Shown here piece after piece: positions 13,446 through 54,385 of a stretch of DNA of 64,000 nt (position 1 is the first letter of the stretch; the number at the start of each line of letters is the position of its first letter). The notes beneath the pieces were generated by a model. The model was not told where the DNA came from, made no database searches, and saw only the letters and a list, made by a program, of their open reading frames with translations. The position numbers and the translations under genes were made by a program. This DNA is from Lentibacillus sp. Marseille-P4043 (GTDB lineage Bacteria > Bacillota > Bacilli > Bacillales > Amphibacillaceae), in assembly GCF_900258515.1 (NCBI RefSeq), contig NZ_LT984884.1:2577353-2641352 (forward strand), in the 5' to 3' direction.

Positions 13446-14330
13446 GTGCAACAACAGCTTGAGAATTATATCGATGTCAATAAAAAACTAATCTATGATG
13501 AACTAGTTCAACATCTTGATAAAATGCCAATCCCCAACCAACTGAAAGAGTCTATGTTATATTCCACGGAGGCAGGTGGAAAACGGCTTAGGCCAATTCT
13601 TTTAATCGCAAGTTTTGAATCCTATAGCGATGATAAAAAGTTTGTACTATCTACGGCAGCGGCACTAGAAATGATTCACACGTATTCGCTCATTCATGAT
13701 GATTTACCTGCAATGGACAATGACGATTACCGTAGGGGAAAACCAACAAACCATCGTATTTTTGATGAAGCAACTGCCATCTTGGCTGGTGATGCTTTAT
13801 TAACGTATAGTTTTGAAATTATTTCGAATGATCCCTTGCTAACGGATCAACAAAAGGTTGTTCTTCTTAAGATGTTAGCTCAAGCTAGCGGACCCAAAGG
13901 GATGGTTGCCGGACAGATTTTAGACATGGAGGCGGAGAACCATGCCGTTTCACTAGAACAATTAGAAGAAATTCATGCACGTAAGACGGGAGAATTAATT
14001 AAGTTTGCTATTACAGCTGGTGCTTATATCGGTGGTGCCTCAACAGAGCAATTAGAGTATCTGGGTGAGTTTGCCGATTATTTAGGCTTAATTTTTCAAG
14101 TTCAAGATGATATATTAGACGTGACTGGGGATCCAGAGAAATTAGGAAAACCAGTTGGAAGTGATGAAGGTAATCATAAAAGCACTTATCCGAAATTACT
14201 AGGGATAGAAGGTGCTATCAAGAAAAAAGAACAATATGTAGAAAAGGCAAAAACAGCCTTGCAACAAGCAATGGCTGATGATTCCTATCTAATGGGATTA
14301 ACAGACTATTTTAGTAAGCGGGATAGCTAA
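13446..14330 (+). CDS. ispA: Geranylgeranyl/farnesyl diphosphate synthase (polyprenyl synthase)
   Basis: A trans-prenyltransferase that condenses isopentenyl diphosphate with allylic diphosphates. 294 residues, with the first aspartate-rich motif HDDLPAMDNDD and the second QVQDDILDVTGD, plus GGKRLRP near the N-terminus. GTG start after GGGGGAAG. In B. subtilis dxs follows directly; here the next element is OLE RNA. The same ispA-ole neighbourhood is known from OLE-containing Bacilli. Confidence 0.96.
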   Translation: MQQQLENYIDVNKKLIYDELVQHLDKMPIPNQLKESMLYSTEAGGKRLRPILLIASFESYSDDKKFVLSTAAALEMIHTYSLIHDDLPAMDNDDYRRGKPTNHRIFDEATAILAGDALLTYSFEIISNDPLLTDQQKVVLLKMLAQASGPKGMVAGQILDMEAENHAVSLEQLEEIHARKTGELIKFAITAGAYIGGASTEQLEYLGEFADYLGLIFQVQDDILDVTGDPEKLGKPVGSDEGNHKSTYPKLLGIEGAIKKKEQYVEKAKTALQQAMADDSYLMGLTDYFSKRDS

Positions 14331-14360
14331 TTCCAAATAGAATTTTTTCGCATATTATGT

Positions 14361-14366
14361 TATAAT
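14361..14366 (+). promoter_or_regulatory. Possible -10 element for OLE RNA
   Basis: TATAAT at 14361-14366 lies 31 bp after the ispA stop, just before the first OLE-like sequence. No convincing -35 hexamer is seen, so OLE RNA may also come from read-through and processing. Confidence 0.4.
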
Positions 14367-14371
14367 AATTA

Positions 14372-15060
14372 CAAACGGAATGGTGCAGTATTCTAGTCAG
14401 CCCTCCGCTCCTGAAGGCGGGCCTAAAAATCCGCCAAAGGGCACATCGATGAAGTTCCTTGTGTTGGCTTGAGGCGCCCAGCCTTGGGTCAGTGCTGGGA
14501 GTTAAGGTTTTAGGGCGATCCACAAAGGCATGTGGGCGTTGACCCTATTACCGCGGAGGCCCATATCTGTAGTGATTGCTAAGCCTAGTAATCACTATGG
14601 AATGGGGTATGAACCTGCAATTGTAAGGTAAGGGACAACTTACAAGCAGCGTAGCCTGCCTTGAGTGGTACTGAGAGGATTGGACTTTAAAAAAGCAAAC
14701 GAGGTGGCCACTTGTTTGACTATTATTTTCTCCATGAAATCAGGACTGCAAAAGAGGCTAGGGAACGGTTAAAGGTTGCTGAGGAAATCTCCTAGACTGT
14801 TCTAATGGACCTATAAAAGGGATTATAGTGTGGACTAAGTGGTAATCCAGTCTAGCTTTTGGTGACGAGGCTAAGGTAGCTTTAATGGGGAACCGCCTAT
14901 ATGGCAACATAGGGTAGCTATCTGGGAAAACCTACTGGACCTAAGCCACAGTTTTTACCTTTTATGGGACCATTCCGTACTTACATACTTCGCTGTGGAC
15001 TTCCCCCACATGAAACAAGAAAGTCTACTAGTTGCAAGGGAATTATTTTAGACGAAATTA
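14372..15060 (+). ncRNA. ole: OLE RNA (ornate, large, extremophilic)
   Basis: About 690 bp without a credible ORF between ispA and oapA, GC-richer than its surroundings and full of local inverted repeats (for example GTAGTGATTGC...GTAATCACTA near 14570-14600). OLE RNA is a roughly 600-nt structured RNA of anaerobic and extremophilic Firmicutes. It is encoded next to ispA and immediately upstream of oapA, and forms a membrane ribonucleoprotein with the OapA protein. Stretches such as GGAGGCCCATATCTG, TGGTGACGAGGCTAAGG and GGAACCGCCTATATGG match my memory of conserved OLE segments. Location, size and the following oapA gene all agree. The ends are approximate. Confidence 0.9.
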
Positions 15061-15096
15061 GTTATCTATATAATAGATTAAAAATTGAGGTAGAGA

Positions 15097-15693
15097 ATGA
15101 AATCACATATAAAAAGCTCGATTAAATTTAGTTTAACCATCGCCGTTATCACCTTTGTGCTAGCGGCTATTTTTGCAGTTATCTCACAATCTGTCTTAAG
15201 TGACGTGATGTGGATCATTGGTTTAGTTATTGTCTTACTTATTGTCTTAATTGGTGTGGTATTCGACATGCTTGGCATAGCTTCAACTTCAGCCGATGAA
15301 AAACCATTTCATGCGATGGCAGCGGAAAAGGTAAACGGGGCAAAAGAATCAGTCGCGATTATTCGTAATGCCGATAAATTTGCTAGTTTCTGTAATGATG
15401 TTATTGGTGATATTTCTGGAATTGTTAGTGGTACAGCATCAGCAATTGTTGTACTCCAAATTGCCAAATTAACCGGTAATGGTGAAGGATCACCAACACA
15501 AATTACATTGCAGGTTCTATTAACAAGTCTTGTCGCTGCTTTGACAGTCGGTGGAAAAGCACTCGGTAAATACTTTGCAATTAACGCTTCAACGAATATT
15601 GTTTTTTTTGCGGGAAAATTAATTTCAATTGTGGAAAACAAGTTAAAAATTCGTGTCTTACCAAAAGCAAACAAAACAAAAATGTCAAAATAA
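15097..15693 (+). CDS. oapA: OLE-associated membrane protein OapA
   Basis: A 198-residue membrane protein with about four hydrophobic segments (roughly residues 9-31, 35-58, 105-128 and 145-163) separated by a basic region. The segment RNADKFASFCNDVIGDISGIVSGTASAIVVLQI resembles the DUF21-like core of OapA. In Bacillus halodurans OapA binds OLE RNA and holds it at the membrane; mutants show altered cold, alcohol and Mg2+ responses. ATG after TTGAGGTAGAG, 37 bp beyond the RNA. Identification rests on the context with OLE RNA plus length and topology. Confidence 0.9.
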   Translation: MKSHIKSSIKFSLTIAVITFVLAAIFAVISQSVLSDVMWIIGLVIVLLIVLIGVVFDMLGIASTSADEKPFHAMAAEKVNGAKESVAIIRNADKFASFCNDVIGDISGIVSGTASAIVVLQIAKLTGNGEGSPTQITLQVLLTSLVAALTVGGKALGKYFAINASTNIVFFAGKLISIVENKLKIRVLPKANKTKMSK

Positions 15694-15706
15694 AGGACTA
15701 TATGAT

Positions 15707-16534
15707 ATGGCTAAAGTTAGGTTAGATGTTTTATTAGTAGAAAAGAAATTAATCGAAACGAGAGAAAAAGCTAAACGTGTCATCATGGCTGGTTTGGTCT
15801 TTTCCGAGCAACAACGTCTAGATAAACCTGGGATGAAGGTGGACGAGACGATTCCATTAACTGTAAAAGGGAAATTGATCCCCTATGTTGGTCGTGGTGG
15901 ATTAAAACTGGAAAAAGCACTGAACCATTTTTCTATTTCAGTGAAGAATAAAATAATGGTCGATGTTGGATCTTCTACAGGGGGTTTTACCGATTGTGCC
16001 TTACAAAATGGTGCAACATTAAGCTATGCCATTGATGTTGGATATAATCAATTGGCTTGGAAGCTGAGAAGTGATGAACGAGTCATCGTGATGGAGAGAA
16101 CGAATTTCCGTTATGTGACACCTGAAATGCTGCAAAAAGGGATACCTGATTTTGCTACTATTGATGTATCATTTATCTCCCTAAAACTCATTTTGCCGGT
16201 TTTAAAACAGTTATTAGCGGAAAATAGTGATGTTATCGCATTGATTAAACCACAGTTTGAGGCGGGGCGTGACCAAGTTGGGAAAAAAGGAATTGTCCGT
16301 GATAAAAAAGTACATCTTGCCGTGTTATCACGCATTATTTCGTATGCCTTATCTGAAGGATATCAATTGTTTGATGTGACCTATTCTCCAATTACGGGTG
16401 GCGATGGGAATATAGAATTTCTAGCGCATTTTGGCTGGAAACATGAAAAAGTAGGAATTACTGTAACAGATGACGAATTAAGTCAAGTAGTAGATGAAGC
16501 ACATCGCAATTTTACCGAGGTAAATAAACCGTAG
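15707..16534 (+). CDS. tlyA: TlyA-family RNA 2'-O-methyltransferase (YqxC)
   Basis: 275 residues, with an N-terminal S4 RNA-binding domain (KVRLDVLLVEKKLIETREKAKRVIMAGLVF) and an FtsJ-like methyltransferase domain with the SAM loop MVDVGSSTGGFTDCAL and ALIKPQFEAG. Mycobacterial TlyA methylates 16S and 23S rRNA; the substrate here is not known. The start is ATG 15707 after AAAGGA, although the frame is open further upstream into oapA. It normally follows dxs. Confidence 0.94.
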   Translation: MAKVRLDVLLVEKKLIETREKAKRVIMAGLVFSEQQRLDKPGMKVDETIPLTVKGKLIPYVGRGGLKLEKALNHFSISVKNKIMVDVGSSTGGFTDCALQNGATLSYAIDVGYNQLAWKLRSDERVIVMERTNFRYVTPEMLQKGIPDFATIDVSFISLKLILPVLKQLLAENSDVIALIKPQFEAGRDQVGKKGIVRDKKVHLAVLSRIISYALSEGYQLFDVTYSPITGGDGNIEFLAHFGWKHEKVGITVTDDELSQVVDEAHRNFTEVNKP

Positions 16535-16684: not shown

Positions 16685-17134
16685 ATGAGTAAGATTCAAC
16701 GTCACATAAAAATACGGGAATTAATTACAGAAAATGATATCGAGACGCAAGATGAATTAGTCGATGAGTTAAAAAATTTGGGGTTCAATGTAACGCAAGC
16801 AACTGTTTCTCGTGACATCAAAGAACTTCATCTTGTGAAGGTCCCAACTGGTACAGGTGTATATAAATATAGCCTTCCAGCTGATCAACGATTCAATCCC
16901 TTAGATAAATTAAAGCGCTTAATTATGGATGCTTTTGTTAAAATTGATCATGCAAGTCATTTTATCATCTTAAAAACACTTCCGGGAAATGCACATGCCA
17001 TTGGTGTCTTGATTGATAATCTGGATTGGGAAGAAATAATGGGCACGATATGTGGTGATGATACATGCCTGATTATTTGCCGGACGGAAACAGAATCAGA
17101 AACCATTAAAAATCGGTTTTTAAGTATGTTATAA
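16685..17134 (+). CDS. argR: Arginine repressor ArgR/AhrC
   Basis: A 149-residue hexameric, arginine-responsive regulator that represses arginine biosynthesis and activates catabolism. The N-terminal winged helix ([22 protein letters not shown]...[17 protein letters not shown]) and the C-terminal oligomerisation/arginine-binding domain with [15 protein letters not shown] and [14 protein letters not shown] are complete. Likely targets in this window are the ARG boxes before argC and argF. It precedes recN as in B. subtilis. Confidence 0.97.
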
Positions 17135-42339: not shown

Positions 42340-42800
42340 TGTTTTCAAAAAGATTGTTGCACAATATTCATAAACTGTGCATTAACTACCGTTGCGGAAA
42401 TACACTTCGCTTTCCCGCAGGACAAGGAATGCTTCGACAGCGTAACATCGCACGCAGAAAATGGTTTTTATTTTCAAGGAGTATACGTATATTTCCTTTA
42501 CTGGTATTGTGCCTTATCATCTTATTACAATTATTTAAATATTTATACTTGATTACAGGAGAAGCATATATTTCCTCGCAAGCAGTCCGTATACACGTAG
42601 ACTCCTGGGGGAAGAGAGGCATAGGTGAGACCCCGCAGTGCGAAAAGGGAGTAAAGGCTAAGATCGCCACGTCCTGTGGCAACGCCTTCATGACCAACGT
42701 CGTGTTGGCCTGAGGAGGCTCTCCAGCCGCCCCCGGAAAGCGTAGTGTATATGGGCTGCGGGTCAGAAAGCAACAAAAAATGCGAAACCAACATTTATAC
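42340..42800. repeat. Mosaic repeat cluster R5, inverse partner of R7
   Basis: The core 42582-42759 has inverted ends GCAGTCCGTATACAC / GTGTATATGGGCTGC and is nearly the exact reverse complement of 53743-53920, including more than 60 identical bases of internal insert. Its left part (42405-42490) carries the cassette beginning GGACAAGGAATGCTTCG between CCCGCA and AAGGAGTATACG. Flanks (GATTACAGGAGAAGCATA; TTTATACCAACTACGAAATT) also match R7 or R2 ends. No gene is supported. Confidence 0.87.
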
Positions 42801-53655: not shown

Positions 53656-54385
53656 TGCTTGTTGCATTTTAAATTTCGTACTTGATAGAAAATGCGACGT
53701 AAGTGCTATGTTGATTTCACATTGTTTGTTGCTTTCTGCCCCGCAGCCCGTATACACTCCGCTTTCCGGGGGCGGCTGGAGAGCCTCCTCAGGCCAACAC
53801 GACGTTGGTCATGAAGGCGTTGCCACAGGACGTGGCGATCTTAGCCTTTACTCCTTTTTCGCACTGCGGGGTCTCACCGATGCCTCTCATCCCCCAGGAG
53901 TCTACGTGTATACGGGCTGCTTGTGAGGAAGTATATGCTTCAATATTTCCCTGTAATCAAGCATTAATAATTGTAATAATACGAGAAAGCAACAGCTGAA
54001 AATCCCGCAGGACAAGGAATGCTTCGGCGGCGTTACATCGCTCGCAGAAAATTGATCTGTATTTTCAAGGAGTCTACGTATTCTGACACCGCTAGTAGAA
54101 GTTCCCTGATTTTTGTGTAGATATAGCATGTATATCAAGTAATAGCACCTACTAGCGAAGGGAAAACACGGAGACTCCTGCGGGAATAGCACGTGTCTGA
54201 AGACTTCGAAGCGGCGGTTTTCTGCTTCGGAGGCTGAAGCCGTGCCCGCGGAAAGCGTAGTGTTTTCCCGTAGCGGTTGTCAAAGCTCCGAACTTGATTT
54301 CTAGTTATTGCACATAATCTATTTATTTTGTAATAACAACAAATGTTTTCGATGGGGCGAGTAATCACAGTCCGATCTTTTAGAA
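53650..54385. repeat. Mosaic repeat cluster R7 between argG and argH
   Basis: A forward core 53743-53920 has perfect 15-bp inverted ends (GCAGCCCGTATACAC / GTGTATACGGGCTGC) and is the inverted copy of R5. Then comes the cassette GGACAAGGAATGCTTCGGC (about 54007-54075) leading to GGAGTCTACGTATTCTGAC. An opposite arm (about 54160-54272) nearly repeats 10340-10448 of R2. The flank CAACAAATGTTTTCGATGGGG ends the cluster. No gene is supported in the 815 bp. Confidence 0.87.

Follow-up and report, generated by a model that had tools for sequence, protein, structure and literature searches.

An OLE RNA with its partner gene oapA in Lentibacillus sp. Marseille-P4043, and the state of this pair in related genomes

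We analysed a stretch of 64,000 nucleotides from Lentibacillus sp. Marseille-P4043 (contig NZ_LT984884.1, positions 2,577,353 to 2,641,352; hereafter the window), in which an OLE RNA and its partner gene oapA lie in the gene order folD, xseA, xseB, ispA, OLE, oapA, tlyA, argR and recN-like (xseA and recN named by eye; Table 1). An earlier interpretation made from the letters alone, the sequence-only reading, had proposed an OLE RNA plus OapA locus here, based on a noncoding gap between ispA and an open reading frame (ORF) for a four-helix membrane protein. This gap is present. Between 14330 and 15097 the plus strand holds no ORF of 60 amino acids or more, so that none has the size of a protein read through 14372-15060.

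An Rfam search placed the OLE family model RF01071 on the plus strand at 14364-14989 over its whole length (model positions 1-616 of 616; 521.9 bits, E 3.3e-150), which is about ten times the gathering score of 50. This was the only RF01071 match in the 3.93-Mb genome, and the Rfam scan of the window gave no other family at the locus. With 626 nt the match is of the full-length type (~600 nt) and not one of the short variants 1 and 2. The stretch 14364-14989 folded with an energy of -227.6 kcal/mol, which corresponds to z -5.5 when compared with 20 shuffled versions. The sequence-only reading had drawn the structured region from 14372 to about 15060; its start agrees with the 5′ end that we predict near 14373, but its end does not hold, as the model stops at 14989. 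The following 107 nt (14990-15096) are a spacer beyond the RF01071 model: folding of 14985-15100 showed no gain over shuffled sequence (z -0.55), and the only further match of the spacer within the window was 15 nt long. We also considered a terminator of its own behind the OLE RNA and rejected it, since none was found between OLE and oapA and the single terminator-like site sits within OLE.

For comparison, relatives were fetched by their OapA from a genome collection, and the best 80 of 359 stretches were retained; all counts on 80 relatives rest on these. Together with the window they form an alignment of 81 sequences, to which the pair structure was transferred from the Rfam alignment. Of 159 model pairs, 156 map onto the window sequence, and 95 of these are changed on both sides among the 81 sequences, compared with a mean of 69.6 in shuffles and 36-55 with slid structures. 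Standard pairs make up 93.0% of the paired cells, but this share leans to the model because the structure comes from it, and the covariation measures are thus the better evidence. The single pair 475-477 was poorly supported (34.8% paired). The dimerisation-type loops CUAAAAAU, CGCCCAG and CAAAGGCAUG as well as GGCC are all kept in 81/81 sequences. The loop CUAAAAAU is presumably L4, the A-A dimer bridge of the OLE structure solved by cryo-electron microscopy (PMC12286853); the assignments of loops to bridges (L4 and L9.3) are ours, by analogy with that structure. OapB is described as binding OLE at P12.2 and P13 (PMC9723947). In the alignment the GG and AC of the loops GGUGAC and GGCAAC are invariant columns, and helices 18 and 20 covary. 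These two hairpins are presumably P12.2 and P13.

A promoter-like element precedes the RNA. In 80 of 81 loci (the exception is L033) a -10-like box resembling TATAAT is followed, 13-20 nt after its end, by TGGTGCAGTAT, the first conserved block, and the TG of an extended -10 box is in place in 78 (frequencies: T 0.99, G 0.97). Seventeen nucleotides upstream, the -35 position is TTGA-like (T 0.94, T 0.55, G 0.91, A 0.81; 80 loci, anchored on the -10 box), while the positions between the two boxes mostly carry less than 0.5 bit. The exact motif TGnTATAWT has its end at this distance from TGGTGCAGTAT in 68/81 loci and occurs 10 times in total on the two strands of the whole window. A free two-box promoter search found at least 9 of 12 matches in 72/81 stretches, compared with 322 of 1,620 base-shuffled ones; the loci are related to each other, so that these counts are not independent. 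Because 14361-14366 is the conserved -10 box, the RNA likely starts near 14373, and with this promoter the Rfam match would begin nine positions ahead of the predicted start. The literature searched, in the parts available to us and with the OLE papers of 2006, 2011 and 2012 outside its scope, makes no mention of an OLE promoter element or of a loss of dxs with OLE kept.

The protein encoded by oapA is 60-84% identical to 51 aligned relatives. Its DxxxD motif, present in 80/80 relatives, reads DVIGD (residues 101-105), and D101 and D105 are among the invariant columns. No Pfam or NCBIfam family matched at 0.001. An AlphaFold2 model built from 52 sequences (predicted local distance difference test score 82.6) has helices at residues 3-34, 39-65, 92-125 and 133-163, and four transmembrane helices are predicted from it. 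The four best fold matches in the PDB (Foldseek) are chains of MtCorB, a CNNM protein (probability 1.00, E 0.012-0.12). In motif, four long helices, CNNM-like fold and position directly after OLE, the protein is like the known OapA and shows no notable difference; from the CNNM/MpfA/CorB Mg2+ transporters, which include its best fold matches, it differs by its 198 residues and the lack of any other Pfam domain. One separate CNNM-type protein of 442 residues is encoded in the genome, in agreement with the report that OLE species have no more than one (PMC11332333).

The further partners are encoded elsewhere in the genome, which together with the RF01071 match, the DxxxD motif and the expected gene order bears out the proposal of an OLE-OapA locus. 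OapB is a KOW-type protein (L097 3535-3885; PDB 7k9b, E 7.7e-33) whose gene lies just upstream of an infA-like gene (identified by eye). On its other side stands an adk-like gene, so close that a map gene would not fit in between (L097 3535-4699, genome G000); this order is unlike that of B. subtilis. OapC is the 84-residue member of two L7Ae-type proteins (PDB 3v7e, E 3.2e-23, and 4lck, E 4.6e-23; YbxF), and a gene for bS21 is present.

In H. halodurans, bS21 binds P6 of OLE, which there carries CCUCCU, a mimic of the 16S tail, and P6 mutants with an altered mimic but kept pairing retained binding (PMC12054373). This mimic of the anti-Shine-Dalgarno sequence is a report for H. halodurans and not a general criterion of the family. 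It is absent from P6 of the window and found in only one of the 81 sequences (L056). P6 has at least one U.U mismatch in 79/81 sequences and tandem U.U mismatches in 57/81; its G-C blocks, the outer as well as the inner, do not vary. Unlike the binding-competent H. halodurans mutants, the window P6 is without full pairing, so that it may or may not bind bS21.

Table 1. Positions of the OLE RNA, its predicted parts, neighbouring genes and the OapA2-associated hairpin (window coordinates unless a locus is given)
Feature	Position	Strand	Remarks
ispA (farnesyl diphosphate synthase)	13446..14330	+	NF045485, 408.1 bits, cut-off 275
-35-like hexamer TAGAAT, 17 nt upstream of the -10 box	14338..14343	+	position conserved in relatives
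Extended -10 box TGTTATAAT; predicted OLE RNA promoter of the sigma-A type	14358..14366	+	conserved across loci
OLE RNA	14373..14989	+	RF01071 match 14364-14989; 5′ end predicted from promoter
Hairpin with loop CUAAAAAU, assigned as L4	14416..14437	+	loop identical in 81/81
P6 stem-loop, GGUUUUAGGG/CCCUAUUACC, with U.U mismatches	14506..14552	+	P6 is the bS21 site in H. halodurans
Self-complementary loop UGGCCA, assigned as L9.3 (dimer kissing loop)	14705..14710	+	GGCC in 81/81, UGGCCA in 71/81
Two hairpins, loops GGUGAC (14861-14866) and GGCAAC (14903-14908), assigned as P12.2 and P13	14861..14908	+	
oapA, 198 aa, four-helix membrane protein	15097..15693	+	56 invariant columns in 52 sequences, DxxxD
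tlyA (rRNA 2′-O-methyltransferase family)	15698..16534	+	TIGR00478, 313.3 bits
argR/ahrC	16685..17134	+	NF003281, 266.9 bits, cut-off 182
Hairpin CCGGGGTGGTAGCCGG, L101	6446-6461	-	co-oriented with OapA2 or its remains
Hairpin CCGGGGTGGTAGCCGG, L102	4356-4371	+	co-oriented with OapA2 or its remains
Hairpin CCGGGGTGGTAGCCGG, L103	5692-5707	-	co-oriented with OapA2 or its remains
Hairpin CCGGGGTGGTAGCCGG, L104	4857-4872	+	co-oriented with OapA2 or its remains
Hairpin CCGGGGTGGTAGCCGG, L105	6524-6539	-	co-oriented with OapA2 or its remains
Hairpin CCGGGGTGGTAGCCGG, L106	5627-5642	-	co-oriented with OapA2 or its remains

Having observed the RNA sequence, its covariation, the partner genes and the conserved promoter-like element, we are highly confident that 14373-14989 is a full-length and very likely functional OLE RNA and that 15097-15693 is its partner gene oapA. 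Several observations weigh against this conclusion. Seven of the 156 mapped pairs are non-standard in the window copy, and the helix in columns 345-389 is only 55.3% paired among the relatives. The -35 box of the window is weak (TAGAAT, that is TAGA compared with TTGA), and a generic promoter scan left the site out for this reason. No Foldseek match of OapA fell below E 0.001, the sequence match between OapA and CNNM was non-significant (E 1.4), and a profile search returned no PDB chain at E 1. The gene cluster of H. halodurans has furthermore been described as one polycistronic transcript (PMC12265935), so that a separate OLE promoter may supplement rather than replace read-through.

The window copy is an ordinary OLE RNA, and thousands of genomes are already known to carry members of this family. 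It shares the whole model, the covarying helices, the dimer loops and the place before oapA with the RF01071 type of H. halodurans and C. acetobutylicum, and differs from it by the U.U mismatches and missing CCUCCU in P6 and by a cluster without dxs. By analogy with these two organisms, from which we infer its expression, membrane location, dimerisation and role in stress, RNA polymerase would start at the dedicated extended -10 promoter (14338-14366), probably with additional read-through from the upstream genes. The RNA would then fold into the known ornate structure and pair with a second copy, and an OapA dimer would hold it at the membrane. OapB may bind the 3′ hairpins, OapC the kink turn and bS21 the P6 stem, and the particle would help the cell to cope with stress; in H. 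halodurans the stresses reported are cold, short-chain alcohols, high Mg2+ and poor carbon sources (PMC11332333, PMC12265935, PMC9723947, PMC12054373, PMC12286853, PMC10898510).

Of 159 genomes of the family, 111 have OLE, and exactly the same 111 have OapA; they include genome G078, in which both are decaying. Since 2,822 hits in Bacillota have also been published (PMC11332333), the gain in species range hoped for in the sequence-only reading is small. We sampled 30 of the 48 OLE-negative genomes and obtained the locus around tlyA from 29. For 25 of them, ispA lay within 1.5 kb upstream of tlyA, with aligned ends 17-362 nt apart; in the other 4 no ispA was seen in this distance, and none of the 29 loci held a trace of OLE at E 1. 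A TlyA tree with these 29 OLE-negative genomes, and with G078 scored as OLE-positive, needs at least 7 changes of the OLE state, 3 of them forced by starred branches, gains and losses being indistinguishable. The nearest rows to the window are Lentibacillus populi and Virgibacillus. In the same tree L012 (NZ_QWLJ01000020.1, 'Roseburia sp. 1XD42-34') groups with Virgibacillus (97*, 99*) and is probably misnamed or contaminated.

In G078 (L098 4797-5755), OLE and oapA decay jointly between open ispA-like and tlyA-like frames. The OLE remnant scores 133.8 bits over 394 nt, with large parts of the 3′ half gone and many broken pairs, although TGTTATAAT is still in place, and the adjacent oapA match contains several stops. 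Defective OLE genes have been mentioned in organisms without OapA (PMC11332333). Elsewhere (G109:C1:2176538-2177108) an OapA match in two frames lies beside a full-scoring OLE, possibly due to a frameshift or a sequencing error. The absence of OLE from 48 of 159 genomes, the changes of state in the TlyA tree and the decaying pair of G078 would all fit an OLE RNA that is recognisable but in early decay and no longer working in this species. We consider this very improbable, as the window copy matches the full model, has its loops as in all relatives and an intact promoter motif, and is followed by an intact OapA frame with the never-varying columns.

A functional OLE RNA acting in trans is also to be preferred over a leader or riboswitch that regulates oapA in cis, to which we give a still smaller chance. 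OLE does lie directly upstream of oapA and co-oriented with it in the window and in 80/80 relatives, and the position of the only terminator-like site inside OLE would suit a leader. However, size, pairing architecture and set of partners are those of OLE, which is reported to act as a ribonucleoprotein in H. halodurans (PMC9723947, PMC12265935), and no other RNA family matches at the locus.

Among the neighbours of OLE, argR/ahrC has been named as linked to OLE (PMC12265935), and ispA lies upstream in 80/80 relatives. Between oapA and tlyA, 45/80 relatives have a gap of more than 1.5 kb; all but one of these gaps contain an ORF that is 628-644 codons long, and the five such ORFs tested were all dxs; the gap is below 400 nt in the other 35 relatives, and no dxs-sized gene is found there in the window. 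In this genome no dxs exceeded the cut-off (best 93.1 compared with 465.95 bits), no Dxr was found and HMG-CoA reductase scored 391.7 bits; judged from these three families, the mevalonate pathway is very likely used. Although ispA and the frequent dxs would fit a service of OLE to the adjacent 1-deoxy-D-xylulose 5-phosphate (DXP) pathway of isoprenoid synthesis, a role as improbable as that of a cis leader, this genome has neither dxs over cut-off nor Dxr but does have HMG-CoA reductase, and Dxr over cut-off is missing in 70/111 OLE-positive and present in 11/48 OLE-negative family genomes. This distribution suggests that OLE is kept where the neighbouring metabolic gene or the DXP pathway is lost.

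CNNM matches averaged 2.52 per OLE-negative genome (n=48) and 1.62 per OLE-positive genome (n=111; Mann-Whitney p 1.8e-8, relatedness ignored), in agreement with the published direction. Of the genera with mixed OLE state, g26 fits a swap between OLE and MpfA/CNNM proteins, with two matches in each of 3 genomes with OLE and 2-4 in 8 genomes without it. The swap was not upheld in g24, where 7 genomes with OLE (G078 included) and 21 without it all had 2-4.

We also considered OLE as a mobile element and rejected this reading. The plasmid search found one record, a distant copy: in Pusillibacter faecalis a plasmid of 504 kb, classed as conjugative, carries OLE (399.8 bits; TGGTATACT at the place of the extended -10 box) with oapA, dxs, tlyA, argR and recN (L137, NZ_AP023421.1 196557-207066). 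Viral contigs gave 13 pattern matches and no relatives. Among phages, a single unannotated 'Bacteriophage sp.' record showed weak similarity to OapA (32.2%, 72% covered), and the 9.4 kb that we took from it contained no OLE.

In the literature that we consulted, OLE and OapA are described as going together almost without exception. In seven genomes we found a second OapA-like gene, here called OapA2, which is intact in five (G035, G145, G139, G143 and G140; loci L100-L104 in this order) and has stops within the match in two (G138 and G141; L105 and L106); an eighth, G056 (L107), has a fragment alone. OapA2 is ~43% identical to OapA, and the five intact copies keep DVVGD and form one clade apart from OapA (support 100/99), with a long-branch warning from the tree tool. 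The least diverged pair has a nonsynonymous rate (dN) of 0.046 and a synonymous rate (dS) of 0.37, pairs with dS above 1 being near saturation; purifying selection seems to act on the intact copies.

No OLE RNA was detected beside OapA2: L100-L107 gave no match at the Rfam gathering score and L101, L103, L104 and L106 none at E 1, and nhmmer with filters off, run on stretches of 831 nt with the OapA2 start (L100-L106), returned one non-significant match (E 0.1). We rejected an OLE RNA at these loci. What their upstream regions have in common is tandem repeats (L102, L105) and a hairpin block, not a long RNA. This block, co-oriented with the OapA-like gene in all six loci of genus g38, where OapA2 is commonest (L101-L106, the two broken copies included), consists of AGGTAATTCA-like letters followed by a hairpin of 11 pairs with a fixed loop in CCGGGGTGGTAGCCGG, and five of the 11 pairs are changed on both sides. 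From the end of the hairpin to the beginning of the OapA2 match the distance is 41-61 nt in three loci and ~680-740 nt in the other three. The hairpin is missing from L100 and from the window, and matched no Rfam family. The literature searched, by queries aimed at neither by name, does not mention OapA2 or the hairpin in the parts available to us. The surroundings include a large helicase-like ORF (by eye) in L101-L104 and differ in L100; pieces of a group II intron lie beside a T-box leader near OapA2 in L102 (3382-3692). As a tentative suggestion, which we rate as somewhat less than an even chance, OapA2 may work with its own small leader RNA, serve as a second membrane anchor of the single OLE RNA in a mixed dimer, or be free of RNA as a step towards CNNM-type transport. 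The hairpin could equally be a repeat element instead.

Separately from these loci, the window contains a dispersed repeat of ~285 bp in two copies that are 88% identical (42510-42794, plus strand, and 53708-53991, inverted). Each copy holds a Bacillaceae-1 RNA (RF01690; 73.3 and 75.8 bits), and the copies lie between a DNA polymerase IV-like gene and argC, and between argG and argH (genes by eye). No rRNA was detected when the window was scanned with Rfam.

Taken together, the conserved promoter-like element would define the 5′ end of OLE RNA. The comparison of P6 is evidence that recognition by bS21, if general, does not depend on sequence mimicry of the 16S tail. Joint decay of OLE and oapA and an OapA paralogue without OLE are natural cases with which the partnership of OLE and OapA can be put to the test among close relatives.
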